A stretch of DNA of 64,000 nucleotides, taken from assembly GCF_001644575.1 (NCBI RefSeq), contig NZ_CP015597.1:186001-250000 (forward strand), written 5' to 3'. The notes beneath the pieces were generated by a model. The model was not told the origin of the DNA and made no database searches. It saw only the letters and a program-made list of their open reading frames with translations. This DNA is from Mycobacterium adipatum. GTDB lineage: Bacteria > Actinomycetota > Actinomycetes > Mycobacteriales > Mycobacteriaceae. A program made the position numbers and the translations under genes. This document shows positions 11,310 through 46,848 of the stretch, piece by piece; positions within the stretch are counted from its first letter, which is position 1, and every line of letters starts with the position of its first letter.

Positions 11310-11333
11310 GGGCAGGCCAACACGGGTCGGCCC
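11310..11333 (+). promoter_or_regulatory. Cassette leader hairpin, copy 1
   Basis: GGGCAGGCC (11310-11318) and GGTCGGCCC (11325-11333) form the mismatched inverted repeat seen before nine other genes in the window; here one C-G pair is a G-T wobble. GGAAGGGA at 11342-11349 precedes ATG 11360. The upstream promoter-like box is the most diverged of the set (TAGCAT at 11294). Confidence 0.7.
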
Positions 11334-11359
11334 AACATCTCCGGAAGGGAGAAGGGATC

Positions 11360-12205
11360 ATGGGTGTTGGACTAGCGGGTACGTTGCCCGCTGCTGTGTA
11401 CGACCAGGAGGACGACATCAGCGAGGCCCCGTACCTGTGGTCGGACCTGTTGGCGCGGCGCAACGCGCTCAGCCTGCGGGTCGAGGACCTCGTGCCGGTG
11501 CTGCGGGTGGATCTACGTAAGTACCGTTCCCGCGAAACCGGCGCCCTAGAAGTCAGCGCCGAACTCGTCGACGAGCTGATCGCAATGGAGGAGTTCATCG
11601 CCGGCGAGGTCGCCAGGATGCTCAATACGGCGCCGGCCGAAGGCACGGTGCGCCTGGAGGCCGCCGTCGACCAGACGGAGTTCGAGGACGCCTACCCAGA
11701 TGCGCGAACACTGCGCGACCTCGTCCCGTACCTGATGTCCCTGCAACACGTGGCGGTCGGCCGCGCCGCTGCAGAGCTGAGCCGCCGTGGCCACGACGTG
11801 GAGGTGTACCGCGGTGAACAGCGCGGGGATCTCACCGTGCGCCGGCTGGCGGCCGGCCTGCTCAAAGAGGAAACCGCCCGGCTGCTCGGTATCGACGTGA
11901 AGCGATACGCGAAGTTCGAGCGCAGCACCTCGGCGCCGCCGGCGGGACTGGTCGCCGAACTGCAGGCCATCGACGACTTCATCGCCAGCAGTGCCGGTCA
12001 GCTCGACGTCACCGACCTCGATGGTGTGAGCGTTGTGGTGATGGTCGACGACCAGGCCGACTTCGAGCGGATCTATCCGCAGGCCCGCACCAAGCGCGAC
12101 GGCCTGGTGTACCCGCGTCGAGTGCATCGCGTGGCGGCCGCGCGTCGGGCGCACGAACTCGAGGCCGCCGGCAACTCGGTACGGATCCTGGTCGCCGATA
12201 CCTAG
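11360..12205 (+). CDS. Internally duplicated HTH-like plasmid protein
   Basis: 281 residues from ATG 11360 behind leader copy 1. The two halves are repeats of each other: each has an HTH-like region (ARRNALSLRVEDLVPVLRVD; LLKEETARLLGIDVKRYAKF), a helical FIA...FIAS segment, then DQTEFEDAYPDARTLRD or DQADFERIYPQARTKRD and a final RR.HDVEVYRG or A.GNSVRILV strand. The HTH parts resemble phage-repressor-like plasmid proteins. The duplication suggests a pseudo-dimeric DNA-binding protein, possibly a regulator of the cassette array, but nothing shows its target. Confidence 0.55.
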   Translation: MGVGLAGTLPAAVYDQEDDISEAPYLWSDLLARRNALSLRVEDLVPVLRVDLRKYRSRETGALEVSAELVDELIAMEEFIAGEVARMLNTAPAEGTVRLEAAVDQTEFEDAYPDARTLRDLVPYLMSLQHVAVGRAAAELSRRGHDVEVYRGEQRGDLTVRRLAAGLLKEETARLLGIDVKRYAKFERSTSAPPAGLVAELQAIDDFIASSAGQLDVTDLDGVSVVVMVDDQADFERIYPQARTKRDGLVYPRRVHRVAAARRAHELEAAGNSVRILVADT

Positions 12206-12494
12206 ACCTGGCACGTGTTTCGGCGGAAATCCAACGACAGCACCAAACGCGTCGTGTCACCGCAGCTGACGATGTTGGTCATCGCTGACGTCAGACCTGA
12301 TATCGGCGATCGGGCTCTCGTCCCCGATGTTGAAGGACCGGGGCATCTCCTCAGATAACCGCGAGCATCACCCTCGTGGCTGGCCGTTGGTTCCGTGAGC
12401 AAACGTTGCTATCTGTTCGATAGCGGCCCGACTTCGGATAAATGCGGGCCTGAAGCCGATCGCAGCAAGCCATCTGGCGTTTAGCATTCAGCAC

Positions 12495-13622
12495 ATGCGA
12501 AAGACTCGGGGTCCCCGCATGATCGTCATAGCTGCAGGGGCGGCGGCGGTACTACTGATGGGGTGTTCGACGGACCTACCGCCTGGGGGCAGCTCTTCTT
12601 CTGTGGACTCCCCACCGCCGCCAGAGCGGTACGCCGACTATCCACTCACCCTCAGATGCGAGGTGAAGTATGAACCCGGCAGTCGGGATGCCGAGCTGCC
12701 GAGCTACGTCCACATCAGGCGGGCCACCGTCGAACATCTCGGAGGCGATCGGATCGCCATCAATCTCACGTTTCCCGGTGACGTGCCGCAAAGCTCATCT
12801 TCGCTGCAGGCCGGATCGCTTGTGTACAGCATCCTGCTGCTGGTGGGCCCCGACTCGGGTTACATCACAATGAGCGAGAAGGACGGCGAGTGGCAGTCGC
12901 ACGACATAAACCTTCGTTCCTGGGCTGGCCTTGACACCGAAGATTTCGACTCTCCGCTGTTGGTTGCCGAGAACGTGAAGCGAAATCAGCTGAGACTCGA
13001 ACTAGATATGAGTGCTCAGCAAGAGTTCCTGGAATCGGAACATTTTGAGCCGGTCATCGCGTTCGACGCGGGTTTTCGGAGCGGCCAGAACGATGGCCCA
13101 CTAGGAGCTCCAGGACTGATTCCCGCTGATAAACAGACTTGTAACGTGGCCCATGGCCAATCGAGCGGCACGCCGACAGCTTCGCCGCCGACTTCCACGA
13201 GGGTGCCGAGGACGACAACGCGCAAAGCTCCACCGACGTCGGAACGCCCCCGTGGGGGATCATCTCCGATGAGGCGGGCCTTCCAGTCGGCCACCGGGAA
13301 TATCGCTTGCACGTTGGTGGACAACGGTGACAAGGCCCAAGCCTCGTGCGAGGTTAAGGAGAATCGCTACGGCAGGTATCCAGTCGAAGGATGTTCACCG
13401 GCCACGCCGATTGTCTTCACTATCGGTCAGGGAGAGGACCCGAAGATCCGATGCACTTCGCGGAGCTACTACCCAGATTCATTGCCCGTTCAGGGATACG
13501 GACGCCCGATATCGGTAGGAACGATCACTTGCACCATTCACGAACGCTCTGGCGTTCACTGCAGGGACCAATCCACGGGCAGATTCTTTGAGGTTTCACG
13601 GGAGGAAGGGCAGTGGGGATGA
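12495..13622 (+). CDS. Lipoprotein with C-terminal actinobacterial DUF6636-like domain
   Basis: 375 residues from ATG 12495. Signal peptide with lipobox LMGC near residue 24, a Ser/Pro linker, a 170-residue beta-rich domain, a second Thr/Pro-rich linker, then a C-terminal domain starting FQSATGNIACTL and ending with ITCTIHERSGVHCRDQSTGR. That last pattern (GNI-C ... G-x-C ... C-x-TG-x-F) matches the secreted actinobacterial domain known as DUF6636, with paired Cys. Likely a surface-exposed lipoprotein. The 290 bp before it (12206-12494) show no gene. Confidence 0.6.
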   Translation: MRKTRGPRMIVIAAGAAAVLLMGCSTDLPPGGSSSSVDSPPPPERYADYPLTLRCEVKYEPGSRDAELPSYVHIRRATVEHLGGDRIAINLTFPGDVPQSSSSLQAGSLVYSILLLVGPDSGYITMSEKDGEWQSHDINLRSWAGLDTEDFDSPLLVAENVKRNQLRLELDMSAQQEFLESEHFEPVIAFDAGFRSGQNDGPLGAPGLIPADKQTCNVAHGQSSGTPTASPPTSTRVPRTTTRKAPPTSERPRGGSSPMRRAFQSATGNIACTLVDNGDKAQASCEVKENRYGRYPVEGCSPATPIVFTIGQGEDPKIRCTSRSYYPDSLPVQGYGRPISVGTITCTIHERSGVHCRDQSTGRFFEVSREEGQWG

Positions 13623-13870
13623 GTAGCCGCAGATTGGTTTCGCGACGCACAGCCCGCCGGCTGGCGTGAACGAAGATCCGGTGAATGAGGCCCACGCAGG
13701 CATCGTGGCGCTGCGTCACTGCGTTGACCGCACGTCGCCGATGATGCTGATCCACAGCCACACTTATCCGCGGGTTCCGGTCACCGCTACGGAGCCACCC
13801 TGCGGGAGTACGTCCGCGGCGCTCGCCTTGTGACCCGCTGACCTCCTGTGGTCCGCTTGTGCGGAGGGCG
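13623..13870. other. Gap with no convincing gene
   Basis: Between the lipoprotein stop and the next terminator there is only a 55-codon frame (GTG 13666 to 13833) with no recognisable product. I see no other feature. Confidence 0.3.
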
Positions 13871-13913
13871 ACACCCACTCCCCACCCGGCACAGGGGTGG
13901 GGAGCGGGTGTCT
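13871..13913 (+). terminator. GGCACA-loop hairpin, copy 1
   Basis: Long stem of the form CTCCCCACCC / GGGGTGGGGAG, with the constant loop bases GGCACA, closed by ACACCC/GGGTGT, then TCTAAA. This is the first of eight hairpins with the same loop that separate the cassette genes. Terminator role is inferred from position. Confidence 0.7.
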
Positions 13914-13949
13914 AAAGGCGCTGCGGGGGAGTGCATTTGGAAGGATCGG

Positions 13950-14005
13950 CTGTCGGTGCTGGGTTGTAGGATCGTGGTGTTGGGCAGGCCGAGAGGGGCA
14001 GGCCC
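13950..14005 (+). promoter_or_regulatory. Cassette promoter-like box and leader hairpin, copy 2
   Basis: CTGTCGGTG at 13950, TAGGAT at 13967, then GGGCAGGCC at 13982 with its partner arm ending GGCCC at 14005. Ribosome site GGAAGGGG at 14016-14023, eight bases before ATG 14032. Confidence 0.75.
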
Positions 14006-14031
14006 ATTGAGCCCAGGAAGGGGCGTTGGAC

Positions 14032-14850
14032 ATGGGGCATGAGGATTCGCGGCGGGGATCGGAGTCGGAGGCGCGCGCGGCGGTGTTGGCCGAGACGCGA
14101 GTGAAGGTCGCTGAGCATGGATGGACGGTCTTGGCGGTGTTTCCGACGGCTGGAGATCAGGGTCCGTCGTTCGCCTACACGGTGGGTCTGTCGGCGCAGT
14201 CGCTGCCGGAATTGGCGATCTATGGGCTGCCGGGCCAGGTGGCGCACAGCGTGCTCAACCAGGTGGCCCGCCGGATGGTGGCCGCAGGCCAGGGGTTGGC
14301 CACCGGCGATCGGATCGAGGGGGTCCTGGTCGACGATGTGGCGCTGGTGGCGGTCGAGATGACCGATGCGCGGGATCTGAATCTGGTGAGGGAGTGCTAC
14401 GGCGCGGTCGCGGCGGCGGTGCAGGTGGTGTGGCCGGATGCCGACGGGGTGTTGCCGTGGGAAGCCGGATCGCGCATCGGGGACGCGCAGCAGCCGCTGC
14501 GTGGGCGCCCGCCGCAGGCGCGGCCGGTGTATCACGCGCAGCGGGTGGCGGCGTCGACGGCGCAGGAGCTGGCCGATCTGATCGCTGAGCAGCCGCGGAA
14601 AAGCGTCGTGGCCGGTGATGGCTCTGACCCGCAGCGCGACAGCGATATTCGCGCTGGCTGGGCGGCGCGGGCGCTGGTTGCCTACGCCGAGCACCTGGGC
14701 GGATCCAGCCTGACTGAGGATGTCGCTACGGCGGCGACCGACCTGTTGTCGGACTTACGGCACCTGTTCGATGCGCTCGGCGTCGAATGGGAGCAGGCGG
14801 TCGCGTCCTCAGACGGCTACTACCGCGATGAGATCTTCGGGCAGCTCTGA
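14032..14850 (+). CDS. DUF4262 family protein
   Basis: 272 residues from ATG 14032 (TTG 14026 is possible but too close to GGAAGGGG). Residues about 20-165 match DUF4262: HGWTVLAVF, FAYTVGLS, PELAIYGLP, LNQVARRMV and VVWPDADGVLPWE are all typical. The last 100 residues are an added helical region. DUF4262 proteins are common on actinobacterial plasmids; the biochemical role is unknown. Single-gene cassette bounded by leader copy 2 and the hairpin at 14899. Confidence 0.8.
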   Translation: MGHEDSRRGSESEARAAVLAETRVKVAEHGWTVLAVFPTAGDQGPSFAYTVGLSAQSLPELAIYGLPGQVAHSVLNQVARRMVAAGQGLATGDRIEGVLVDDVALVAVEMTDARDLNLVRECYGAVAAAVQVVWPDADGVLPWEAGSRIGDAQQPLRGRPPQARPVYHAQRVAASTAQELADLIAEQPRKSVVAGDGSDPQRDSDIRAGWAARALVAYAEHLGGSSLTEDVATAATDLLSDLRHLFDALGVEWEQAVASSDGYYRDEIFGQL

Positions 14851-14898
14851 GAAGCCTTCTGCGCGACAGGTGGTGTGTGTCGGGTTCCGGCCTGGCGC

Positions 14899-14939
14899 AC
14901 ACCACCACCCCACCCGGCACAGGGGTGGGGTGGTGGTGT
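14899..14939 (+). terminator. GGCACA-loop hairpin, copy 2
   Basis: Near-perfect stem ACACCACCACCCCACCC against GGGGTGGGGTGGTGGTGT around the loop GGCACA, 48 bp after the DUF4262 stop. Confidence 0.75.
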
Positions 14940-14977
14940 CTATTCCGTTGGCGTGCAGGTGATTCGAGGAACAATTG

Positions 14978-15035
14978 TTGTCGGTGGCGGTTGGTAGTGT
15001 CGTCAATGTACGGGCAGGCCGTTGGGGGCCGGCCC
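14978..15035 (+). promoter_or_regulatory. Cassette promoter-like box and leader hairpin, copy 3
   Basis: TTGTCGGTG at 14978, TAGTGT at 14995, hairpin arms GGGCAGGCC (15012-15020) and GGCCGGCCC (15027-15035). The arms pair fully except the central A opposite G. GGAGG precedes ATG 15056. Confidence 0.8.
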
Positions 15036-15055
15036 ACTCACCCCGGAGGTTGGGA

Positions 15056-15322
15056 ATGGTCGTTTACGTTGATGATGTCGAGCCGGTCGATGTCGAGTTG
15101 TTGAGTCTCGATGAGGCGAGGATGGTGTTGGCGCGCTCGCAGGCCGAGTTGCCGATTGCGTTCAACTCGGCGCACGCCGCGACACTGCGGATGGAGATCG
15201 CGGAAGTTGAGGATCAGATTGCGTGGCTGGAATCGGAGGCGGCGGCCGAGGCGTTGGAGGACGCCGCCGTGGAGCACGCCAGCGATCTGTGGGCGGACTA
15301 CGACTTGGGAATCCCGGCGTGA
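15056..15322 (+). CDS. Small acidic helical protein, unknown
   Basis: 88 residues from ATG 15056 after leader copy 3. Strongly acidic, with a long amphipathic helix (RMEIAEVEDQIAWLESEAAA) likely to form a coiled coil. GTGA overlap couples it to the next gene. No family recognised. Confidence 0.55.
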   Translation: MVVYVDDVEPVDVELLSLDEARMVLARSQAELPIAFNSAHAATLRMEIAEVEDQIAWLESEAAAEALEDAAVEHASDLWADYDLGIPA

Positions 15323-15708
15323 GCGCGGGCAGCGCCGGTGCGGGCGACAGCGCTCTGGTTGATGACGGCGGATACCCCACTGAGTGGGGGATCGCCGCTG
15401 TGCGGGGTTTTCACGGCTCGCCTGCTGCGATGGTGGATCTGCTGGAGCAGATGTGGTGGACACCGACGCTGATGACGGTGGATGAGTGGCTGGACGGCCA
15501 GTTGCGGACGGTTGTGAGGGTGTCGCTGGTGACGGGCGGCTGGAGCGGCAACGAGCAGCTCATCGACTCCCTCGTCGGGTCGATGTTTCACCTGCGGTTC
15601 TGGGAGTCCAGCCATCGCGGCGGGCTGCATGTCTACGAGGTTCCGAAGCGGGAGTGGGAGGTGGCCGGTCCGCTCGGTGCGATCGCGGCCGAGGGGGACC
15701 GAGGGTAG
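15319..15708 (+). CDS. Hypothetical protein, second gene of a two-gene cassette
   Basis: 129 residues from GTG 15319, overlapping the previous stop. The sequence has aromatic-rich segments (EQMWWTPTLM; MFHLRFWESSHRGG) and looks like a small globular alpha/beta protein. No family recognised. It ends shortly before the hairpin at 15751, so it shares its transcript with the 88-residue acidic protein. Confidence 0.5.
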   Translation: MSAGSAGAGDSALVDDGGYPTEWGIAAVRGFHGSPAAMVDLLEQMWWTPTLMTVDEWLDGQLRTVVRVSLVTGGWSGNEQLIDSLVGSMFHLRFWESSHRGGLHVYEVPKREWEVAGPLGAIAAEGDRG

Positions 15709-15750
15709 ATCGGCGCTGTGGCCGGCGTTTCGGTGCCGGCCACGAAGGCT

Positions 15751-15790
15751 CACCACCACCCGACCCGGCACAGGGGTCGGGTGGGGGTGT
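15751..15790 (+). terminator. GGCACA-loop hairpin, copy 3
   Basis: The stem reads CCCGACCC/GGGGTCGGG instead of CCCCACCC/GGGGTGGGG, a compensatory change on both arms that keeps pairing around the same GGCACA loop. Confidence 0.75.
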
Positions 15791-15834
15791 CTATTGTGCT
15801 GCAATGGCACGGGTTTTCGCGGGTGATCGCGGAT

Positions 15835-15892
15835 TTGTCGGTGGGCAGCGGTAGTGTCCTGTGATGTGAGGACGGGCCATCGGGGCCGGTCC
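15835..15892 (+). promoter_or_regulatory. Cassette promoter-like box and leader hairpin, copy 4
   Basis: TTGTCGGTG at 15835, TAGTGT at 15852, arms GGACGGGCC (15870-15878) and GGCCGGTCC (15884-15892). Relative to other copies GGGC/GCCC has become GGAC/GTCC, a paired change. GGGAGGGG precedes ATG 15919. Confidence 0.8.
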
Positions 15893-15918
15893 GCTACTCC
15901 TCGGGAGGGGATTCGGCT

Positions 15919-17025
15919 ATGACCGATTTGGACACGACCGTGACGGTGATTGATGCTGCGGCCCGCGCTCATGTGCCGGTGTTGTTGTGGAGCGATCCCG
16001 GCATGGGTAAGTCATCCATCGTGCGGGCGTTGGCCGCTGCCGATGGTGTGCCGGTGGAGACGGTGATCGGGTCGCAGCGTGAGCCTGTGGACATTGCGGG
16101 ATGGCCGGTGGTCACCGATGGTGCGGTGCAGACGTTGGCGTTGCCTGATTGGGCGCGAACACTTTTGGACGCCAAGGGCGGTTATCTGCTGCTGGACGAA
16201 ATTTCGACGTGCTCGGCGTCGGTGCAGGCGGCGATGCTGACGGTGGCGTTGGAGCGGGTGGTCGGACGAACCAAGCTGCCTGATGAGGTTCGGATCGTGG
16301 CCGCTGCCAATCCTCCCGACCGGAGTGCTGGTGGTGTCGATCTGACGCCGCCGATGGCGAACCGTTTTCTGCACGTGGATTTCGAGCCGACTGCCGAGGA
16401 ATGGCTGACCGGCATGCGGTCGTCGTTCGCCACGTTGCCCGCTTCGCGGGGCATCGCCGCCGACGATCTGCGCCGCGCCGACGAAATCGGCGCTGTTTGT
16501 GCCTTCATCGAAGCGCGCCCTGGCCTGCTGCACGCTTACCCCGACACTGACGAGGCCGCAGGGCGGGCGTGGCCGTCGCGGCGCTCCTGGGAGGCGATGG
16601 CGCGGGTGTTGGCGCATCTGCGCCGCGATGACACCGCTGCGATCAGCACGGTTGCGCTGGGCCTGGTCGGTGACGGCGCGGGCAGTGAGTTCATGGAATG
16701 GCGGGCCAGCATGGACCTACCCGCCGTCGCGGACGTGATCGCGGACCCGAGCATTGTTGAGTGGGCGACGGCCCGCCCCGATCAGGTGTGGGCGGTGTTG
16801 TCCGGTGTGGTCGCGTGGGCGTCGGGCAAGGGCACCAAGGATGCGTGGATGACCGCGTGGGGTCCGCTGGTCGAGGCTGCGACCCACGGTGCTCCCGATG
16901 TGGCGGGGGCGGCGGCGCGTTCTTTGAGCGTGGCGATGCCTGCTGGTGCGAAACCGCCTGCGGCGGCGCGCAAGTTCAAAGACGTGATGATTGCGGCGGG
17001 CCTCGACGTGGGGAGTGCAGCGTGA
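15919..17025 (+). CDS. MoxR-type AAA+ ATPase
   Basis: 368 residues from ATG 15919. Walker A DPGMGKSS near residues 28-35, Walker B LLLDEIS near 92-98, and sensor-1 region VAAANPPD near 128-135 are clear. MoxR ATPases work with VWA-domain partners in chaperone-like metal-insertion or complex-remodelling tasks, and the next gene (GTGA overlap) is such a VWA protein. It heads a coupled operon through 19698 plus the disrupted helicase. The cellular target is unknown. Confidence 0.85.
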   Translation: MTDLDTTVTVIDAAARAHVPVLLWSDPGMGKSSIVRALAAADGVPVETVIGSQREPVDIAGWPVVTDGAVQTLALPDWARTLLDAKGGYLLLDEISTCSASVQAAMLTVALERVVGRTKLPDEVRIVAAANPPDRSAGGVDLTPPMANRFLHVDFEPTAEEWLTGMRSSFATLPASRGIAADDLRRADEIGAVCAFIEARPGLLHAYPDTDEAAGRAWPSRRSWEAMARVLAHLRRDDTAAISTVALGLVGDGAGSEFMEWRASMDLPAVADVIADPSIVEWATARPDQVWAVLSGVVAWASGKGTKDAWMTAWGPLVEAATHGAPDVAGAAARSLSVAMPAGAKPPAAARKFKDVMIAAGLDVGSAA

Positions 17026-18290
17026 CCGAGGTCAGGGCGCTCACTGCTGATGAGTGGCGGCGGCTGCGACTGGCGCGGATGGCCGCAGTCGAGGCGATGC
17101 CGTACTTCGCGCGGGCGTTGTTCGCGTTGTCGCCGGTGGCGGCACCCGGTTTGAAAACGTTTGCGGTGGACAAGTATTGGCGGCTGTATGTCGATCCGGC
17201 GATGTTGGGCACCGATGACGGGTGGAGCATTGCAACGTCAGGGGCCGTTTTGCTGCACGAAGTCGGGCATGTGCTGCGGGATCACGGTGGCCGCGCCGAG
17301 ACGGTGGCCTCTTCGGTGGACCGCACCATGTGGAACTACGCCGCTGACGCCGAAATCAACGATGACCTGATCGCGGCGGGGGTGCGCCTGCCAGCGGGTG
17401 TGGTGACACCGGCAGGGCTGGGCTGCGAGGACGGTCACGCCGCTGAGGTCTACTACCGGCACCTGGTGCCGCCCGGTGCGCCGCCGCCCACCGGGGCTGA
17501 CGGTGATCCCGGTGACGGTGAGGATGACGGCTATGGCTGCGGGTCCGGTGCCGGGGATGCGGTGCCGGGGGAACTGCCCGCCGCTGCCGACGTGGGAGGC
17601 AGCAAGGGGCTGTCCCGTGCGGCTTCCGATCTGGTGAAAGTCGCCGTCGCCCGCGAGGTTCAACGGGAGTTGGCGCACGGCGGGGCGGGTCGCGGGAGCA
17701 TGCCTGCGGGCCTGGCGCGGTGGGCCGCTGCCCAACTCGCCCCGGCTGTCGTGCCGTGGCCGAAGGTGCTGCGCGCGGCGGTGCGCCGCGCCGTCGAGGA
17801 CCAGGCGGGCCAGGTGCACCACTCCTGGCGACGGCCCAACCGGCGCGCTCCCAAGGGTGTGCTGCTGCCGACGCTGCGGGCACCGAAGATCGCGGTCGAT
17901 CTGATCATTGACACGTCGGGGTCGATGGGGGAAGAAGATCTGGCGGCGGCGCTGTCGGAGACACGGGCGGTGTTGCGGCGCACGGGCGCCACGGTGCGGG
18001 TGTTGTGCTGCGATGCTGCGGCCAGCGCGCCGCGCCCCGTGCGGTCGATCAGCGATGTTGTCCTGACCGGAGGCGGGGGCACCGATCTGCGGGTCGGTAT
18101 CGACGCCGCGCTCGCGGCGCGGCCAGCGGCCAACGTGGTCGTGGCGTTCACCGATGGCGGGACACCCTGGCCCGAGCGTCGGCTGCCGGTGCCGCTGATC
18201 GTGGCGCTGATCGGCACGCACGCCGCCGACACCGCTCCCGCGTGGGCCAAGACGGTGTGCGTCACTCCCGCAGCGGCGGTGGCGGCGTGA
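17022..18290 (+). CDS. VWA-domain protein with zinc-peptidase-like HEVGH motif (DUF2201-like)
   Basis: 422 residues from GTG 17022 (GTGA overlap). The N-terminal half has HEVGHVLRDH near residue 82, a gluzincin-like motif, followed by NYAADAEINDDL. After a Gly/Asp-rich linker, the C-terminal domain has DTSGSMGEED near residue 300, the MIDAS motif of VWA domains, and TGGGGTDLR. This is the DUF2201 layout (peptidase-like plus VWA) typically encoded next to a MoxR ATPase, as here. Cytoplasmic; probable partner of the preceding ATPase. Confidence 0.8.
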   Translation: MTEVRALTADEWRRLRLARMAAVEAMPYFARALFALSPVAAPGLKTFAVDKYWRLYVDPAMLGTDDGWSIATSGAVLLHEVGHVLRDHGGRAETVASSVDRTMWNYAADAEINDDLIAAGVRLPAGVVTPAGLGCEDGHAAEVYYRHLVPPGAPPPTGADGDPGDGEDDGYGCGSGAGDAVPGELPAAADVGGSKGLSRAASDLVKVAVAREVQRELAHGGAGRGSMPAGLARWAAAQLAPAVVPWPKVLRAAVRRAVEDQAGQVHHSWRRPNRRAPKGVLLPTLRAPKIAVDLIIDTSGSMGEEDLAAALSETRAVLRRTGATVRVLCCDAAASAPRPVRSISDVVLTGGGGTDLRVGIDAALAARPAANVVVAFTDGGTPWPERRLPVPLIVALIGTHAADTAPAWAKTVCVTPAAAVAA

Positions 18291-18487
18291 GCAAGCGGGC
18301 CGGGGCAGGTGACTTCGCGCAGTGGGCCGAGTCGGTGCTGTCAGGCACCGGCTGGACGGCGGTCACGGTGCGTGGCGCTGCACAACGAGGGTGCTCCGAT
18401 CTGGCGACGGCGGCGCTGGCCGATGGATTCGCCGCCGCTGCTCGCGGGTTGAGTGAGGTCGCGCAGAGCCGCGACGGTGCCGCGTGA
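18287..18487 (+). CDS. Small hypothetical protein
   Basis: 66 residues from GTG 18287, overlapping both the VWA gene and the next gene by GTGA junctions, which supports it as real. Ala-rich and helical with no motif. Its position suggests an adaptor or accessory of the MoxR/VWA set. Confidence 0.5.
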   Translation: MSKRAGAGDFAQWAESVLSGTGWTAVTVRGAAQRGCSDLATAALADGFAAAARGLSEVAQSRDGAA

Positions 18488-19698
18488 GCGCCGCGCTGTT
18501 CGACCTCGCACTGCGGGTGGCTGCACGCGATGCCGGTGGGCCGGTGCCTCGGCTGCTGCACAACCCGGCACCGTCGCGGGACGTGAAGGTCGCCGTCGCG
18601 GCGCGGCGCACCGGGCCGGTGGTGCACGTGCAGGCCGTGGGGCCTGATGGGCGCACCCACTCCGGCACCGGGGCCGAGGGACTGGCCGCGCTTGCCCGCG
18701 CCGCCGGGTGCGTGTCCGGTGACCTCGGCACCGGCGCGACGGCGCTGGTCGATACGCCTGCCACGCTGCGGGCGCTGGCGGGGTTGGCGCGCAGCTTCGC
18801 CGACCCGGCGCGAAGTGCCGGCCTTGACGTGGCGGCAGGGTCGGCGCTGGCCGGATGGTGGGCAGAGCGCGCCGCGCATCCCGGTACCTCGGCAGTCACC
18901 GACGTGCTGGGCACCACCCGTACCCGGTTCATGCTCGGTGCGGCTCCCGGTGAGGATCACGCGGTCGCGTGGCGCGCGGCGCTGTCGGTGCCCAACGGGG
19001 TGGGTGGGCTGCACATCTGGCATCACGCGGTGACTGGTGGGCCGCTGCTGCCGGGGCTGGACGCGCTGCGTGAGGACGACGAATGGCAGTTGGAGGCCAT
19101 GCAGGAGGCCGTGAGTGAACAGCGCAGTTGGGACCGACCCGAAACGCTGCACCTGGCGGCGGCGCGGTTGATGAGCCGCTGCGATGCCGCAGACCTCTAC
19201 GAGGCCGCGCTGCTGGCCGATCCGCTGTGGCGGGCGCGGGGCGTGCATACCGGGTTCGTCTGCCACGGGCAGGCCGTGACGGGGGCGGGCCAGGCAGGCA
19301 ACCGCGTGACGGTGCGCGCCGATCGGCTCGACACCCGATTGAAAGCCGGTAGCGCGGTCACGGGGTGGGCGGGGGAGCCGATGGCGGCGATGCCGGATGC
19401 GGAGAACCGTTTCGGCGGTGAGGTTTTCGCCACCGGAGTGGGTGAGGACGGCGCGCTGACGGTAACCATCGGTGGTCTGCGTAAGACGGGTTACCGGCCC
19501 GTTGCCGGGGAGACGGTGACGGTGATTCCCGCGCCGCCCTCGGTGTCCACAATCCGGTCGCGGCGCACGGCGGTGGCGCGGCTGTACAGGCGGCGCTTCT
19601 CCTGGCTGTCACAGGGCAGCACGCCGACCGCGAGCCGCCGCCCGGTTCCGCTGGCGGTCATGATCGCCGCCGCTGACGACGAGACACCCGAGGACTGA
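18484..19698 (+). CDS. Hypothetical protein of MoxR/VWA operon
   Basis: 404 residues from GTG 18484. No recognisable catalytic motif; the middle is helical (LHLAAARLMSRCDAADLYEA) and the C-terminal 130 residues are beta-rich with a VTVRADRLDTRLKAGSAVTG stretch that could be an OB-like or barrel domain, ending in a basic segment (RSRRTAVARLYRRRFSW). Coupled to upstream genes and one base before the helicase start, so it belongs to the same operon. A nucleic-acid-related role is only a guess. Confidence 0.5.
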   Translation: MSAALFDLALRVAARDAGGPVPRLLHNPAPSRDVKVAVAARRTGPVVHVQAVGPDGRTHSGTGAEGLAALARAAGCVSGDLGTGATALVDTPATLRALAGLARSFADPARSAGLDVAAGSALAGWWAERAAHPGTSAVTDVLGTTRTRFMLGAAPGEDHAVAWRAALSVPNGVGGLHIWHHAVTGGPLLPGLDALREDDEWQLEAMQEAVSEQRSWDRPETLHLAAARLMSRCDAADLYEAALLADPLWRARGVHTGFVCHGQAVTGAGQAGNRVTVRADRLDTRLKAGSAVTGWAGEPMAAMPDAENRFGGEVFATGVGEDGALTVTIGGLRKTGYRPVAGETVTVIPAPPSVSTIRSRRTAVARLYRRRFSWLSQGSTPTASRRPVPLAVMIAAADDETPED

Positions 19699-19699
19699 G

Positions 19700-20821: not shown

Positions 20822-20834
20822 TTATCCGTAGCTG
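20822..20834 (+). repeat. Left terminal inverted repeat
   Basis: TTATCCGTAGCTG, matching the right end in 12 of 13 positions; the 156 bp that follow, up to tnpA, contain no other gene. Confidence 0.85.
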
Positions 20835-35953: not shown

Positions 35954-35954
35954 C

Positions 35955-37928: not shown

Positions 37929-37964
37929 ATCCGACAAAACACCGACGGAAGGACGATCAGCCGT

Positions 37965-39619: not shown

Positions 39620-39625
39620 ATCAGC

Positions 39626-39937
39626 ATGGGAGATAGAGCCGACGACCCAGTCGACCACGCACGCACTACCCGCAAGCACGCCGGGCAGAACTGGAAAAAC
39701 ACCCGAGCTATGCCGGCGCTCATCGCCGTCGGCGCCGCCAGTGCCTTCATCTTCGCGGCCCTCTACGCGTTTGCCACGGGCTATCCCACTATTGGCATCG
39801 TCTGCGCCGTAATCGCAGCCGCGCTGCTAACCGGAGGGCTTGGCTGGCTCAGCCGCGAACGTCGCCGAGTTCGACACATCGAAGCCGAGTATCTAAGACA
39901 ACACCCAGAAGCAGACGCTCAACCCCCCGCGAGCTGA
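39626..39937 (+). CDS. Small two-helix membrane protein
   Basis: 103 residues from ATG 39626, six bases after ccdA. Hydrophilic start, two membrane helices (residues about 32-52 and 58-75), basic tail. No family known. Probably co-transcribed with the DsbA/CcdA genes. Confidence 0.55.
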   Translation: MGDRADDPVDHARTTRKHAGQNWKNTRAMPALIAVGAASAFIFAALYAFATGYPTIGIVCAVIAAALLTGGLGWLSRERRRVRHIEAEYLRQHPEADAQPPAS

Positions 39938-39946
39938 CGAAGGTCT

Positions 39947-40657
39947 TTAGCCGACGGGACACGTGTGGGCAGCTTGCTGCAGTGGTTGGACAGATAGCGC
40001 ATCGACCGGCAGCCCGTATCCCCGCATGACCGCGATGAACTGCATCGCGTACTGACAGTGGAAGGCCTCATTGGGTGGCATCCACAGCGCCGGCTCCTTA
40101 TCGCCCTTGTCCTGGTTCGCTTGTCCCTGCACCGCAACAAGATTCGCCGGATCGTTGGCAAAGCGCACGCGCAAGGCGTCCGTCCATATCCGCGCGCCTT
40201 GGTCCCAGGCGTAGGCGAGGGGCACGATGTGCTCGATCTGGACGGCGGCCCCCGTCTGGTTGCCGCGAGTAAATGGGATCGTGAGGCTCGTATAGGGGTC
40301 GTGCAGAACTCCGGTTGCGACCGCCGTCGGGCACCGGCTGATCGCAACGTATGTCTTCTCCACCAGGTCGCGATCCAAGATGTCGTTGCGGGTGTCGCAT
40401 CCGTTGTGACCGCCAGGCGCATCGTTGTCGTCGGTCCACGACTCGCCGAACGCGGCGCGCCGGTAATCCTGGCTCCGAACCCGAAGCGGGACCACCGCGA
40501 CGCCGGCAAGCACGTCCTCACCCGGAGCCACCGTGGGGACATCCGCGGCCGCGATGAACTGAGCCGACTGCTCAGCCGCCGAGACCACCGTCTGATAAGC
40601 CACCAAGACCGAGACCGCCGCGAACAGCGCCAGCCATATCGTCCGCGCGCGGGTCAT
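39947..40657 (-). CDS. Secreted HNH-family nuclease (DUF1524-like)
   Basis: 236 residues from ATG 40657; the longer frame adds 51 residues outside a clear signal peptide and is rejected. Signal/anchor (ARTIWLALFAAVSVLVAYQT), then a GmrSD-C/DUF1524-like core with QIEHIVPLAYAWDQGA (HNH His), DPANLVAV and NQDKGDKEPALWMPP. Exported nuclease of a type common in actinobacteria. It is the last gene before the right transposon end, on the strand opposite the sulfur genes. Confidence 0.82.
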   Translation of the reverse strand: MTRARTIWLALFAAVSVLVAYQTVVSAAEQSAQFIAAADVPTVAPGEDVLAGVAVVPLRVRSQDYRRAAFGESWTDDNDAPGGHNGCDTRNDILDRDLVEKTYVAISRCPTAVATGVLHDPYTSLTIPFTRGNQTGAAVQIEHIVPLAYAWDQGARIWTDALRVRFANDPANLVAVQGQANQDKGDKEPALWMPPNEAFHCQYAMQFIAVMRGYGLPVDALSVQPLQQAAHTCPVG

Positions 40658-40748
40658 CAGATCGCCCCTCGTCCGCGACACACCCCGTCGCACGTAGACG
40701 ATATGCCGTCGACGCGCTGAACAGTACAAACGACGCCCAGTCCCGTGA

Positions 40749-40761
40749 CAGTTACGGATAA
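40749..40761 (-). repeat. Right terminal inverted repeat
   Basis: Reads inward TTATCCGTAACTG, one mismatch with the left end; immediately followed by GCTGTC at 40762. Confidence 0.85.
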
Positions 40762-41062: not shown

Positions 41063-41118
41063 TTGTCGGTGGTGCCCGGTAGTGTCAGGGGTGTCGAGCA
41101 AGTCGTTGGGGCGGGCTC
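41063..41118 (+). promoter_or_regulatory. Cassette promoter-like box and leader hairpin, copy 5
   Basis: TTGTCGGTG at 41063, TAGTGT at 41080, arms GAGCAAGTC (41096-41104) and GGCGGGCTC (41110-41118). GGGC/GCCC has become GAGC/GCTC, again a paired change. GGAAGGGG precedes ATG 41140. Confidence 0.78.
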
Positions 41119-41139
41119 AGTTTCGGAAGGGGAACAATC

Positions 41140-41382
41140 ATGGCGGTCTATGGCGATGGGGATTGCTTGGACGGGCCGGAAGGCTGCACGGGGGAGACGT
41201 TCGCGCGCTCGACGCTGAGCGGGAGTGGAGACGCTTACTACCGCTGCGATGGGCACTACGACGCGTACGTCGAGCGGGTCCAGCCGCGCATGGATGAAAT
41301 CCGCCGGCGGCATCCCGAGCACGCTCCGAGCGACTTCGATCCCGCGTATGCCGGAGAGTCCTGGGATGAGGACGGCTGGTAG
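41140..41382 (+). CDS. Small Cys-rich actinophage/plasmid protein
   Basis: 80 residues from ATG 41140. Acidic with Cys pairs (GDCLDGPEGCTG; YRCDGHYD) and a C-terminal block DFDPAYAGESWDEDGW. Small proteins with this ending are widespread in actinobacteriophages and plasmids; I know no function. Possibly binds zinc. Own leader (copy 5) and terminator (41451). Confidence 0.7.
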   Translation: MAVYGDGDCLDGPEGCTGETFARSTLSGSGDAYYRCDGHYDAYVERVQPRMDEIRRRHPEHAPSDFDPAYAGESWDEDGW

Positions 41383-41534: not shown

Positions 41535-41590
41535 TTGTCGGTGGTGTCGGATAGGCTTCACGTTGTTGGGCAGGTCAGTGGGACCGGCCC
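41535..41590 (+). promoter_or_regulatory. Cassette promoter-like box and leader hairpin, copy 6
   Basis: TTGTCGGTG at 41535, TAGGCT at 41552, arms GGGCAGGTC (41568-41576) and GACCGGCCC (41582-41590): GGCC/GGCC has become GGTC/GACC on both arms. GGAAGGGG precedes ATG 41614. Confidence 0.8.
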
Positions 41591-41613
41591 TCTATTCCCG
41601 GAAGGGGAGTGCA

Positions 41614-42579
41614 ATGCACGCAATCAAGGCACTGGGAGCCGTTATCTCGAACCTGTTGGGGGTGCTGGGGTTTCGTCCGGTCGAGTCGCTGGTGGTGGTG
41701 GCGGTGCAGGACGGTGAGGCGGGTTGCGTGATGCGCCTGGACCTCAGTGACGCGGCGTCGCCGGATGCTCCGGAGAGGTTGGCCGATTTGGTCGTGGGCG
41801 GTGGTGCTCAGGGCGCGGTGGCGGTGTTCGTGTCGGCTGAGAACGCCTCGTGTGCGATGTGCGCGGACGAATTCGGTGAGCAGGCGCGCAAACTGTCGGC
41901 GGCGCTGGAGCGACGCGGTGCGCAGTTGCTCGATGCGGTGGTGGTCGATCGGATCGAGGCGGGTGGGCGTTGGCGCTGCGTCGACAACTGCGGCAAGGGC
42001 GGGATCGTCGACGATCCTGCGACGTCGGCGGCGGCGGCTGCTGCGGTGGTGGCGGGTCACCGGATGTACGGCAGCCGGGAGGAGTTGAAGGCGACGGTTG
42101 CTGTTGATGTGGCGCGGGCTGCGGTGCTGGAGCCCATGCTGGCCGGTGCCGGTGGTCCCGTCGAGGACGTGGCTGTGGCGGTTCGTGCGGCGGTGGCGCT
42201 GGTGCGGCGCGTAGGTGAGGGGGCGGTGCTCTCGGATGTCGAGCTGGCGGCCGTCGGTGCGATGCTGGTGGATCTGCGGGTGCGTGATGCGCTGATGACG
42301 CTGGTCGACTGCGACGAGGCAGGGGCGGCCGATCAGCTGTGGTCGCAGCTGGTGCGGGTGCTGCCCCAGCCGTTCCGCTCCGAGGCGCTGGTCTTGAAGT
42401 CGCATGCGGCCTACGTGCGGGGTGAGGGGCCGCTGGCGGGGGTGTGCCTGGAAGCTGTACAGGCCGAGGACCCGACCCACCGCATGGCCGAGCTGCTCGA
42501 CACTGCGCTGCAGAGCGGTGTCCGGCCCGAGGCGATCCGCGGGCTGACTGCGGCGCTGCCCCCGGCGGTGTCGGTGTAG
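41614..42579 (+). CDS. DUF4192-like protein
   Basis: 321 residues from ATG 41614. Opening VLGFRPVESLVVVAVQDGEA and the later AAVALVRRVGEGAVLSDVE, LWSQLVRVLPQPFRSEALVL and GEGPLAGVCLEAVQAEDP match the DUF4192 family, which occurs in actinobacterial chromosomes, plasmids and phages; function unknown. Single-gene cassette between leader copy 6 and the hairpin at 42636. Confidence 0.75.
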   Translation: MHAIKALGAVISNLLGVLGFRPVESLVVVAVQDGEAGCVMRLDLSDAASPDAPERLADLVVGGGAQGAVAVFVSAENASCAMCADEFGEQARKLSAALERRGAQLLDAVVVDRIEAGGRWRCVDNCGKGGIVDDPATSAAAAAAVVAGHRMYGSREELKATVAVDVARAAVLEPMLAGAGGPVEDVAVAVRAAVALVRRVGEGAVLSDVELAAVGAMLVDLRVRDALMTLVDCDEAGAADQLWSQLVRVLPQPFRSEALVLKSHAAYVRGEGPLAGVCLEAVQAEDPTHRMAELLDTALQSGVRPEAIRGLTAALPPAVSV

Positions 42580-42707: not shown

Positions 42708-42763
42708 TTGTCGGTGGTGCTCGGTAGAATCACGGGTGTAGGGCAGGTCAGTCGGACCGGCCC
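42708..42763 (+). promoter_or_regulatory. Cassette promoter-like box and leader hairpin, copy 7
   Basis: TTGTCGGTG at 42708, TAGAAT at 42725, arms GGGCAGGTC (42741-42749) and GACCGGCCC (42755-42763). GGAAGGGG then GTG 42788; the nearer ATG 42783 hits a stop after two codons. Confidence 0.8.
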
Positions 42764-42787
42764 ACGGTTCCCAGGAAGGGGAATGTC

Positions 42788-43444
42788 GTGACTGCTGTGG
42801 TTGAGGGTTCGGTGGCTGTGGTGTCACGTTCGGTGTCCGAGGCGTTGCAGGGCGGGGTGCCGGCCGGCGCGGTGGTGTGCGCGTCGCTGGCTGATGGTCC
42901 GGTGCCGGGCTGGCTGGTCGTCGAGGAGACTGCGGCGGCGGGGGCGCAGCGACAGTGCGCGATCGTCAGGCTCGATGGATGTTCGGTGGTGGCGGCCGGC
43001 GCGCTGTCGGAGGTCAACGTGGCCGGCGATCCGGTACCGACCGAAGGGGAGATGCCGGCGTGGGCTCCGGCGCTGGCTGGTTCGTTCTGGGCGGCCCGGC
43101 GAGCGCGCGGCGAGGCGGAAGCGACGCGTTCGGCGCTGACGGCGCTGCAGCGGCGCTTGGCGAACATCGTCGATGCGGCGCATGAGTACGCCGATGAGAA
43201 CAGCCTCTGCGAACGCTTCGACGATTTCATGATGGAGCAGGGGTTGCGGCCGCGGTCGCGCGAGTACATGTGCGTGGTGGACGTGACGGTTCGGGTGCGG
43301 ATCCCGGCGTCCGGGCGCAACGCTGAAGCCGCGGGCGGCGAGGTCACCGACGAGATGGTCGCCGATGCGGTTCAGGGTCTGGGCGCGCGAATGATGACCG
43401 ACGCGATCCAGGACCACGACGTCGTGGACATCGAGGAGGCCTGA
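42788..43444 (+). CDS. Hypothetical cassette protein
   Basis: 218 residues from GTG 42788. An N-terminal beta-rich domain, a helical stretch (RSALTALQRRLANIVDAAHE) and a C-terminal domain with EYMCVVDVTVRVRIPASGRN and a closing acidic segment. The last part resembles a small ferredoxin-like or DNA-mimic fold but I cannot assign it. Converges on the minus-strand gene at 43535, with two hairpins between. Confidence 0.55.
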   Translation: MTAVVEGSVAVVSRSVSEALQGGVPAGAVVCASLADGPVPGWLVVEETAAAGAQRQCAIVRLDGCSVVAAGALSEVNVAGDPVPTEGEMPAWAPALAGSFWAARRARGEAEATRSALTALQRRLANIVDAAHEYADENSLCERFDDFMMEQGLRPRSREYMCVVDVTVRVRIPASGRNAEAAGGEVTDEMVADAVQGLGARMMTDAIQDHDVVDIEEA

Positions 43445-44007: not shown

Positions 44008-44064
44008 TTGTCGGTGGGGGCCGGTAGTGTTCTCGATGTAGGGCAGGCCAGTTGGGGCCGGCCC
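44008..44064 (+). promoter_or_regulatory. Cassette promoter-like box and leader hairpin, copy 8
   Basis: TTGTCGGTG at 44008, TAGTGT at 44025, arms GGGCAGGCC (44041-44049) and GGCCGGCCC (44056-44064). GGAAGGGG precedes ATG 44088. Confidence 0.82.
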
Positions 44065-44087
44065 CGAAATCCCGGAAGGGGACTGTC

Positions 44088-44927
44088 ATGACTGCAGCAA
44101 CAATTGAGCGGTTTTCGCCGGCAGCTGTCGACGAGGACGGCCAGGTCGACTGGCGCGTGCTGCTCGAACAGGCGATGACGATGCCGGGGCACCTCGGAGA
44201 CACCTACTGCCGGTTCTACCAGTACTCGCTGCAAAACCAGATCCTGCTGTGGTCGCAGGGCGTCACGGAACCGTGCGCACCGTTCAGCGTCTGGAAGGCC
44301 CTGGGCCGAATCCCTGTCAAGGGTGGCGGCCGTGCGGTGCTGCATCCGCGGCCGATCCGCAAGACCGACGAGGAGAGCGGCGAAAAGGTCGTCGTGGCAA
44401 TGCGGTTCAGGCTGAAGAGGTCCACTTTTCCCTATAGCAACACTGTCGGGCCCGAGGTGGATTGGCCTGAGCTGCCCGAGTGGGACGCGCAACGCGCACT
44501 GGCAGCGCTGGACATCGTGCAGGTGCCCTACGCGTCGATCGACGGCAATTGCCAGGGCTACTCGTTCGCCCGGAATGTGGCGGTGAGCCCGGTCGCGAAG
44601 TATCCGCTGAAGACGTTCTTTCACGAGCTGGGCCACGTGATGCTGGGACATACCACCGACAGCGCCGAGGGCGAGAGCCCCTGCAGCCGCGGGGTCGCGG
44701 AGTTCCAAGCGGAGGCGGCGGCGTACCTGCTGGCGCACAACCTCGAGTTGAGCGAGTGGGCGCCGGCGGAGTCGCGTGCCTACATCCAGCACTGGCTGGG
44801 GGATGAGCAGGTCACCGAGGCTCACATCCGGGCGGTGTTCACCGCGGTGGACAAGATCCTGAGGGCCGGCCGAACGGTCGCCGACGCCGACGTCGACGAG
44901 GAGGCCGGCGAGGCGATCGCCTCATAA
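44088..44927 (+). CDS. ArdC-like antirestriction protein with zinc-peptidase motif
   Basis: 279 residues from ATG 44088. The N-terminal part (FYQYSLQNQILLWSQG; PFSVWKALGRIPVKGG) matches the ArdC-type ssDNA-binding domain, and FFHELGHVMLGHT near residue 186 plus EFQAEAAAYLLAHN form a gluzincin-like metalloprotease domain. ArdC proteins protect incoming conjugative DNA from restriction, so this supports a conjugative or transmissible replicon. Confidence 0.82.
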   Translation: MTAATIERFSPAAVDEDGQVDWRVLLEQAMTMPGHLGDTYCRFYQYSLQNQILLWSQGVTEPCAPFSVWKALGRIPVKGGGRAVLHPRPIRKTDEESGEKVVVAMRFRLKRSTFPYSNTVGPEVDWPELPEWDAQRALAALDIVQVPYASIDGNCQGYSFARNVAVSPVAKYPLKTFFHELGHVMLGHTTDSAEGESPCSRGVAEFQAEAAAYLLAHNLELSEWAPAESRAYIQHWLGDEQVTEAHIRAVFTAVDKILRAGRTVADADVDEEAGEAIAS

Positions 44928-45143: not shown

Positions 45144-45199
45144 TTGTCGGTGCTCGGCGGTAGAGTCATAGGTGTTGGGCAGGCCAGTCGGGTCGGCCC
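45144..45199 (+). promoter_or_regulatory. Cassette promoter-like box and leader hairpin, copy 9
   Basis: TTGTCGGTG at 45144, TAGAGT at 45161, arms GGGCAGGCC (45177-45185) and GGTCGGCCC (45191-45199), with a G-T wobble. GGAAGGGG precedes GTG 45225; the nearer ATG 45220 hits a stop. Confidence 0.8.
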
Positions 45200-45224
45200 T
45201 GGGTTCCCAGGGAAGGGGAATGTC

Positions 45225-45665
45225 GTGAGCGTTGTCGAGAATGCGCCGGTGGGGCTGCGGGTGGACAAGGACGGGTCGGCGCGGCGGGTGCCGCTGACGG
45301 TCGACCAGTACGGCAGTCCGATCGGGATGCTGTGTGAACAGATCGGATGCCAGGTGGTGCAGCTGGTGCGGTTGGCCGGTGGGCTGGATCTGTGGCTCGA
45401 TGAGGAGGCGTTGGTGTTCCTGGACCTCAACGACCGGGCCGCGGTGACCGCAGCGGTCAATCCGGTCGCGACGATGATCGCGAGCCGGACAGCTCCGCTG
45501 CGTCAGCCGATCTTCGGGGTCGCGGTGTTCCTGGGCGGTGACGGGGAGACCAGCGCGGGGCTGTCGGTCGAGCAGCTCGACGAGTTGGAGCGCCTTGTGG
45601 CGCTGTCGACCGAAATCGTGGCGCGTGGACAGTCGTTGGCCGCGCACGTGGGCGGGGCCCACTGA
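45225..45665 (+). CDS. DUF3846-like small plasmid protein
   Basis: 146 residues from GTG 45225. VGLRVDKDGSARRVPLTV, SPIGMLCEQIGCQVVQLVRL and LDLWLDEEALVFLDLNDRAA, followed by PIFGVAVFLG, match the DUF3846 pattern found on actinobacterial plasmids and phages. TGATG junction couples it to the next gene. Role unknown. Confidence 0.7.
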   Translation: MSVVENAPVGLRVDKDGSARRVPLTVDQYGSPIGMLCEQIGCQVVQLVRLAGGLDLWLDEEALVFLDLNDRAAVTAAVNPVATMIASRTAPLRQPIFGVAVFLGGDGETSAGLSVEQLDELERLVALSTEIVARGQSLAAHVGGAH

Positions 45666-45910
45666 TGGCGCTGAACCTGACGATCAAGGTGGAGAACACC
45701 TACAGCGACGGCCACGAGTCCGAGCAGACCCATGCGCTGACGTTGGATCGGTTCCGCGGCGAGGAGGATCTGTGGGACCACCTGTTCGACTACACCGGCG
45801 ACGGTCACGGCGCGGGTGAGGGCAGCGACCTCGGATCGCTGTACACGGTGACGGTGCTGGCCTGCCCTGAGTATCCCGAGCTGGTGGGGCTGAGCAATGA
45901 GTGGGGCTGA
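45665..45910 (+). CDS. Small hypothetical protein
   Basis: 81 residues from ATG 45665, overlapping the previous stop. Beta-rich with LNLTIKVENTYSDGHESEQT and VTVLACPEYPELVGLS. The 3' end overlaps the next frame by 14 bases. No family known. Confidence 0.55.
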   Translation: MALNLTIKVENTYSDGHESEQTHALTLDRFRGEEDLWDHLFDYTGDGHGAGEGSDLGSLYTVTVLACPEYPELVGLSNEWG

Positions 45911-46626
45911 GGTGGATTCTGCGGCCTTGCCGGTCGGCGCATCCGTCGAGGCCGTGGAGGATCTGCGCAGCGGACGCCTGGACGGCCCGCTGTACCGCGT
46001 TGTGGCGGCACAGGGTGCTCTGCGCGACGTCCGGCGGATTGAGGCCACCACGGGCGCCCTGGACGGCCTAGAGATGCGGTTCCTGGTCGCTGAGTTGCGC
46101 CCCGTCAGGCCCTCAGTGGCGCGGCGCTATGAGGCACTGCGGACGCGGCGCGTGCTGGCGCAGTGGCGGCATGCTGCGGCCACTGATGCCGAGGACTTCG
46201 GCATTGTCGAGGACCTTCTGGACAGCGCGCAGCGGTTGGCGGCGCTGGTGCTCGAGGGGCGGCCCCGAGGACCAGGACGACGCGGTGATGGTGAGCGGGT
46301 TTGTCAGCGACCTCGACGCTGCGCACGTCGTGCAGATCGACACCACCGAGAGCACGGGTCGGGTGCGGGTCTTCATCGACGATGGGACCGTCTACGACGG
46401 CGATCCGGAGACGGACGCGCCGCCTGGGGCGCACTACCGCGGTCCTGGCTGGGACGACAACCGCCGGCTCTTTGGCGTGCGGAGCCTGATGACGGGGGAG
46501 ACCTCGACGTTTCGGGCCACCGGTGAAGCAGATGCCACGGCGCAGTACCTCGATGTCGTCGCGTCCAACCTGCTGGTGTGGCCTGACCCCGACGTCGAGC
46601 CCGGTGATGTCGGTGCCCAGCGGTAA
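45897..46626 (+). pseudogene. Frameshifted two-part cassette protein
   Basis: From ATG 45897 one frame codes plausibly to LLDSAQRLAALVLEG near 46260. The sequence then looks coding in another frame (GPEDQDDAVMVSGFVSDLDA to 46626), while the first frame degenerates into Arg-rich text. The switch lies in GGGGCGGCCCC at 46257-46267. A one-base indel in a homopolymer, a sequencing error or a second gene starting ATG 46288 would all explain it. The second part (VFIDDGTVYDGDPETD) resembles proteins of actinobacterial phages and plasmids. Confidence 0.55.
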
Positions 46627-46663
46627 CGTCTCTAGGTGTTGGGCAAGCCAGTGGGGCGGGCCT
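46607..46663 (+). promoter_or_regulatory. Cassette promoter-like box and leader hairpin, copy 10
   Basis: ATGTCGGTG at 46607 lies inside the end of the preceding frame; TAACGT at 46624; arms GGGCAAGCC (46641-46649) and GGCGGGCCT (46655-46663), the weakest of the set. AGGGGAG precedes ATG 46693. Confidence 0.65.
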
Positions 46664-46692
46664 ACGGTTCTCAACATAGGGGAGTGACGAAC

Positions 46693-46848
46693 ATGGCCGA
46701 GGTAACCAAGACCGCCGGAGTGACCGCCTGGACGGGCGCGTGGCGGCTGCCCACCAATAAGCGTGATCACCAGCGGGCGGTGCGCAAGCAGCGCCGCAAG
46801 GACCGTCGTGACGTGGCGAACCTGCGACGCGATTACGACCGCCGCTAG
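46693..46848 (+). CDS. Small basic protein at end of cassette array
   Basis: 51 residues from ATG 46693. The C-terminal 30 residues are extremely basic (RAVRKQRRKDRRDVANLRRD), suggesting nucleic-acid binding. Last gene of the array, closed by the strong hairpin at 46885. Confidence 0.6.
   Translation: MAEVTKTAGVTAWTGAWRLPTNKRDHQRAVRKQRRKDRRDVANLRRDYDRR

Follow-up and report, generated by a model that had tools for sequence, protein, structure and literature searches.

Repeated gene units of a mycobacterial plasmid combine a putative PafBC-type promoter with a covarying RNA leader

We analysed a window of 64,000 nucleotides from Mycobacterium adipatum, comprising bases 186001-250000 of the plasmid contig NZ_CP015597.1 (C2, 252,568 bp; the genome has two contigs), and concentrated on a family of repeated gene units located between positions 11277 and 46848. 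The original prediction described ten cassettes, each composed of a box, an inverted repeat, a Shine-Dalgarno sequence (SD) and a start, and all ten were confirmed in the window as + strand units, each carrying a promoter-like box, a hairpin (H1), a GGAAGGGG-like SD and a start codon. The ten were presented as one array, but this array is split by a 19,940-bp insertion, and four further leader copies lie beyond the window, on the opposite strand at 2.4-7.3 kb, bringing the number on C2 to 14.

On the left of the insertion, unit 1 (11277-12205) consists of a degenerate box (11277-11299), H1 (11310-11333) and a gene of 281 amino acids without a Pfam hit (11360-12205). It is followed by unit 2 (13950-14850), in which a box of the RecA-NDp class described below (13950-13972) and H1 (13982-14005) precede a DUF4262 gene (14032-14850), by unit 3 (14978-15708), with a box (14978-15000), H1 (15012-15035) and two genes without a Pfam hit (15056-15322 and 15319-15708), and by unit 4 (15835-18290), where the box (15835-15857) and H1 (15870-15892) lead into an AAA ATPase gene (15919-17025) and a VWA-like DUF2201 gene that extends to 18290. 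On the right lie unit 5 (41063-41382; box 41063-41085, H1 41096-41118, a gene of 80 amino acids at 41140-41382), unit 6 (41535-42579; box 41535-41557, H1 41568-41590, a DUF4192 gene at 41614-42579), unit 7 (42708-43444; box 42708-42730, H1 42741-42763, a gene without a Pfam hit at 42788-43444), unit 8 (44008-44927; box 44008-44030, H1 44041-44064, an ArdC-like gene at 44088-44927), unit 9 (45144-46526; box 45144-45166, H1 45177-45199, genes at 45225-45665, DUF3846-like just below the Pfam cut-off, 45665-45910 and 45897-46526) and unit 10 (46607-46848; box 46607-46629, H1 46641-46663, a gene of 51 amino acids at 46693-46848). NCBIfam named none of the unit genes above its cut-off. The product of 44088-44927 matched PF08401 (ArdcN) below the cut-off (E-value 0.055), contains HELGH (an HExxH motif) and has relatives at 43-52% identity, many of which carry PF08401; through this chain of homology it is a predicted ArdC relative, with no sequence match among solved structures at E-values up to 1. 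The ArdC protein of R388 is described as being needed in the recipient (PMC7213743).

The boxes have the form TTGTCGGTG-8 nt-TAGNNT. Mycobacterial DNA damage promoters that are independent of LexA and RecA were reported to share the consensus tTGTCRgtg-8 nt-TannnT (PMC5656591), a motif named RecA-NDp, whose activator is PafBC (PMC6789036), itself activated through binding of single-stranded DNA (ssDNA) (PMC11804915). Nine of the ten window copies agree with this consensus, and the box expected before every copy is thus present in all but the 11310 copy, which matches at 7 of the 12 scored positions. In the M. adipatum genome, the exact pattern TGTCRGTG-8 nt-TANNNT was found 28 times, 12 of them on C2, compared to 2 matches of the reversed pattern, and the chromosome (C1) contains two adjacent WYL-domain frames (C1:3513779 and C1:3514759), as expected of pafB-pafC, this being a match at the domain level. 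The assignment of the unit boxes to the RecA-NDp, PafBC-activated class is well supported by their sequence. Since the box is a known promoter, the set, for which the original prediction named no description, is not wholly undescribed; regarding the leaders, no paper was found in a literature search limited to open-licence papers and incomplete listings.

To examine covariation in H1, we started from 67 box matches with a scored stem (one further box match lacked a stem) and dropped 7 that seemed unrelated, 3 near-duplicates, 2 whose stems were shifted and 6 that carried a variant hairpin at the same place, termed M2 as opposed to the window-type family, M1. The remaining 49 and the 11310 copy were aligned using MAFFT without a structure model (alignment A1, 50 copies). 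In A1, 92.0% of the pair cells hold standard pairs, six of the eight pairs changed on both sides, and 29 cells are two-sided, compared to 9.1 ± 2.1 in shuffles, none of 500 shuffles being as high; when the partner was slid by one base, 3 two-sided cells were left. We then built the suggested covariance model of H1 (R1), whose source copies were picked by promoter, and used it in a search. The best 150 of its 181 matches, 137 of them distinct, formed a second alignment, fitted to the model (A2; three rows without a box, L110, L113 and L114, are probably false and were retained in the counts), which showed 65 two-sided cells compared to 25.1 in shuffles. As the shuffles do not correct for the relatedness of the copies, these ratios are not probabilities. 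Two-sided arm changes were found in 15 of 25 sources, one of which (G327) is probably a false match, with position 2 changing from G-C to A-U in six sources, position 8 from C-G to U-A in seven, and position 3 altered in seven as well. The paired changes predicted at 15870 (GGAC/GTCC), 41096 (GAGC/GCTC), and 41568 and 42741 (both GGTC/GACC) are correct, and the claim that the hairpin is under selection is supported.

The model also linked H1 to the promoter. A box score (matching positions out of 12) of at least 9 was observed in 130 of the 137 distinct copies, and in the independent test, confined to the 89 copies that were not used to build R1, 83 had such a box upstream, compared to 86 of 3000 stretches drawn at random from the same loci. 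All 14 R1 matches in the M. adipatum genome are on C2 and none on C1. In the 130 copies with a box, H1 begins 9-13 nt after the end of the -10 element, which supports the earlier placement of the hairpin at the very 5′ end of each mRNA, in the form of a position predicted to be at or near that end.

Whether the selected structure was RNA or DNA had been left undecided, and the mispairs favour RNA. Outside the variable position 6, G.U outnumbers A.C by 64 to 1 in the 137 copies (36 to 1 when counted once per source and position; 70 to 6 when position 6 is included), and by 42 to 0 in the copies outside A1, an indication that folding takes place in the sense strand. Judging by these counts, folding of the leader as RNA of the sense strand is well supported. 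The central A opposite G, predicted to be nearly always kept, is present in nine window copies and replaced by G.G at 15870, with tandem mismatches (A.G/A.G or A.G/G.A) at 13982 (A.G/G.A), 41096 and 46641; what is retained at position 5 is a purine.purine mismatch (132 of 137 copies, the other 5 having T.G). Pairs 4 and 9 are nearly invariant in M1, and the loop is mostly of 5-6 nt, ranging from 4 to 7 nt. A scan of window positions 9500-48000 against Rfam 15 at E-values up to 1 gave no match on the leaders. The sole match was Ms_AS-8 (47456-47529, 94 bits), located here on a plasmid contig.

A second covarying hairpin, H2, which was absent from the original prediction, lies over the SD. Downstream of H1, CCC and the SD's G run stand on either side of a short loop, and a 4-bp stem can form in 99 of 137 leaders, compared to 20.2 in letter shuffles. 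The pattern fits 97 of the 137 leaders; in 88 of these, the base preceding CCC can pair with the one following the G run, compared to 58.7 ± 3.0 in shuffles, as T-A (69), A-T (10) or G-C (9). The loop and 3′ arm of this short stem would therefore contain the SD.

The leaders have a narrow distribution. Scoring up to 15 candidates in each of 396 genomes from the genus, we found R1 matches in 26, and two or more matches in 15. An order-wide search (397 genomes) yielded seven single matches outside the genus, all close to the threshold, with E-values of 0.0001-0.001. A pattern scan of genome contigs proved too loose, returning at least 120 stretches; when 51 of 80 listed loci and 9 viral loci were re-scored with R1, E-values below 0.0001 were confined to Mycobacterium or Mycolicibacterium loci and one Actinomycetes metagenome bin, an Actinopolyspora locus gave one weak match (E-value 0.0067), and the 9 viral loci gave none at E-values up to 0.1. 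Other hairpins were found at the place of H1: variant M2 in plasmids of M. paragordonae and M. intracellulare and in genome G188, a hairpin differing from M1 in M. avium plasmids, another with paired changes of its own in two Gordonia plasmids, and one hairpin common to two units of pFiD188. In pS2b (bases 1-20000), RecA-NDp units carry diverse H1 hairpins and a conserved element resembling AGTCCCGGCCGGTAGCCGGGACGTGAGCCCGGGAAGG beside the SD. Mean folding z-scores after the same promoter were -2.12 for the two Gordonia plasmids (n = 9), -1.94 for the M2 loci (n = 10) and -1.75 for pS2b (n = 7), compared to -0.14 for the M. adipatum chromosome (n = 16) and -0.04 for 27 boxes of five other genomes. 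That H1 is conserved within a plasmid lineage while other hairpins take its place elsewhere suggests, as far as sequence comparison goes, a lineage-specific, plasmid-borne partner.

The units are also concentrated near plasmid ends. Of 77 exact boxes on 17 plasmid records, 62 are no more than 20 kb away from a record end, compared to 16.6 expected by length, though array genes or csf2 (see below) had served to select these records and the count is hence not a random sample; 59 of the 62 point outward, and two of the three that point inward are on MF600313. Inverted repeats were found at the record ends of 9 of 18 plasmids compared. Five of the nine (L303/L304, L309/L310, L313/L314, L317/L318 and L327/L328) are recorded as circular and, given these repeats, may be linear. 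When read inward from its end, NZ_CP122996 begins with the same sequence as NZ_CP122997 does at its start; these two records may represent arms, or different parts, of a single plasmid. Plasmid pS2b is described as linear (PMC12803027); the version compared had no terminal repeat.

In the window, eight copies of a terminator-like hairpin family (D1, of the CACCCCACCCGGCACAGGGGTGGGGTGG type, identity at least 61%) lie on the + strand between 13869 and 45109, upstream of units 2-9 (starts at 13869, 14897, 15748, 40995, 41446, 42629, 43489 and 45062). The insertion (20822-40761), which is not part of the system, has TTATCCGTA inverted ends and a 6-bp GCTGTC on each side, and it contains a phage-integrase family gene (21986-24355). 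The closest relative among those compared, contig C369 of genome G257 (93-97% identity), does not have the insertion and starts with a telomere-like sequence, whose first base is 282 bases past the point where the match ends (window position 46928). Homology to the plasmid ends of relatives stops at 46925-46928, ~280-300 bp short of their telomere-like ends, and other sequence lies beyond. The state of C369 thus indicates that the array was originally uninterrupted and that it probably finished close to an end of the plasmid.

To summarize, we find it reasonably probable that the units form a plasmid establishment regulon, switched by PafBC and read through a two-hairpin RNA leader. In each unit, a host-type RecA-NDp promoter would be followed by H1 at or near the mRNA 5′ end, H2 holding the SD, and one or a few genes; neighbouring units are often separated by a terminator-like hairpin. 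The shared damage promoter and leader may allow the plasmid to switch on its establishment genes when its DNA is single-stranded or damaged: ssDNA arising from plasmid entry, end resection or damage would activate PafBC, PafBC would turn on all units jointly, providing early proteins, e.g., the ArdC relative, shortly after the plasmid has arrived, and H1 and H2 would set the amount and duration of translation. Single-strand transfer would not be required as the ssDNA source, since end resection or damage would suffice. Both the induction on entry and the partner of the leader are parts that we infer; the leader itself is a real, selected RNA element, joined on mycobacterial plasmids to a known promoter class, and its role is coherent but unproven.

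Several points weigh against this proposal. Most unit genes have no assigned family or function, and the box of unit 1 is degenerate. In A2, five of the eight pairs changed on both sides, a number equalled by 52 of 500 shuffles, although the 65 two-sided cells were not, and all shuffles ignore relatedness. Folding z-scores are weak for the window's own boxes (-0.74; n = 10, one of them spurious and unit 1 excluded), as they are for M. abscessus (-0.98, n = 5) and pFiD188 (-1.18, n = 2), and for this reason the case for M1 rests on covariation. The tally of boxes near record ends carries its selection of records, the M. adipatum plasmid record has no terminal repeat, so this plasmid may not be linear, and for linear plasmids of the pS2b type a published study reports no relaxase homologue and considers double-strand transfer (PMC12803027).

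We weighed this regulon against other accounts of the leader. H1 might be a mere 5′-end stabiliser, an extreme 5′ stem that slows mRNA decay with no specific partner, and we regard this as possible but doubtful: its location near the 5′ end fits, as do the sequence-diverse hairpins at the same place in pS2b and the other sequences in Gordonia and M2, but the purine.purine mismatch and the near-invariant pairs 4 and 9 exceed, within M1, what a bare stem needs, and H2 covers the SD. Operators often sit just downstream of a promoter, and the inverted repeat could be such a DNA operator, bound by a dimeric repressor. A dyad would yield paired changes too; it also predicts as many A.C as G.U mispairs, in conflict with the excess of G.U both with and without position 6, and neither the loop of variable length nor the retained stem mismatch agrees with it, making this account highly improbable. 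Lastly, some units are plainly related by duplication, which would fit repeats that are hitchhiking copies of one promoter segment with a functionless leader, yet the arms changed on both sides in most sources and H2 shows a paired change of its own, and we give this account next to no credence.

A fourth alternative concerns the CRISPR-less type IV-B complex that these plasmids encode, for which the leaders could be the natural RNA partner, with Csf proteins binding H1 and regulating or collecting the leaders. In the window, csf2 (Cas7-like, RAMP; 3755-4618, - strand) lies outside the units and is co-distributed with them. The region 2972-8637 around it is type IV-B-like and homologous to such a region of NZ_CP126902, the csf2 neighbours and a cysH-like region being assigned from synteny only. 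Of the 396 genomes, 19 have csf2, including 13 of the 15 with at least two R1 matches compared to 6 of the 381 others, and of five csf2 genomes without an R1 match, two have M2, G188 and, judging by the box places that its contig C3 shares with NZ_CP025548, G227. Moreover, the published account leaves the RNA recognised by type IV-B complexes unidentified and describes the RNA bound in E. coli as ~55-60 nt (PMC7937560). Against this, csf2 and the units sit on one plasmid family, and co-inheritance therefore explains their joint pattern; the co-distribution fits a functional link and co-inheritance equally. There are also mismatches between the two: pS2b has units and no csf2 (66 records matched csf2, three named Mycobacterium and none of them pS2b), csf2 genomes G082, G293 (74% complete) and G341 showed no array in the stretches examined, G254 and G355, both fragmented, have arrays without csf2, and four Rhodococcus csf2 plasmids have 0, 0, 1 and 2 exact boxes near an end. 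In stretches of two Rhodococcus csf2 plasmids, a repeat search revealed no promoter-leader family among the 20 families listed for each. In G341, csf2 is at C1:2882128-2882991, with no array seen within ~20 kb, and as this genome is one 6.4-Mb contig, the gene is perhaps chromosomally integrated. On balance we hold a Csf partnership to be unlikely, and equally so its more specific form, in which a type IV-B ribonucleoprotein would read the 5′ hairpin of the plasmid's damage-induced mRNAs and time the establishment genes after entry. If it were true, the hairpin and Csf lineages would have changed together.

Should the PafBC-switched regulon be correct, plasmids would tap an ssDNA-activated regulator of their host for timing early genes. 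The leaders add an RNA family with strong covariation that is matched by no Rfam model, and they supply type IV-B systems with a candidate RNA that can be put to the test.

Among known systems, the original prediction named the start-associated sequences of cluster K mycobacteriophages as the nearest parallel, which is apt for the architecture and fails for sequence and box. The SAS and extended SAS (ESAS) elements likewise recur ahead of numerous starts, about half of them having inverted repeats upstream (PMC3203893); we read the SAS as a short inverted repeat around the SD, whereas that paper calls it asymmetric. The sequences of the plasmid leaders differ: by eye, the 13-bp GGGATAGGAGCCC of the SAS is absent from the ten window leaders, and in bases 30000-60800 of phage Anaya, 15 SAS-like sites had no box scoring above 9 of 12 within 120 nt upstream. 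The units also resemble a known early-gene system in having early genes with anti-restriction functions in uniform orientation, but their hairpin would be part of the transcript, downstream of the -10 element, and their switch would be the host PafBC. An ssDNA promoter of the Frpo/ssi kind, in which the promoter lies inside a folded single strand, was considered and rejected, given that H1 begins 9-13 nt past the -10 element and the wobble bias marks the sense strand. Type IV-B CRISPR complexes (PMC7937560, PMC8175902) share plasmids with the units, the leaders being only candidate RNA partners. With the RecA-NDp, or P1, promoters of the PafBC regulon, the units share the box, its 8-nt spacing and the -10 element, and they differ from them in sitting on plasmids and in being joined to a conserved two-hairpin leader.

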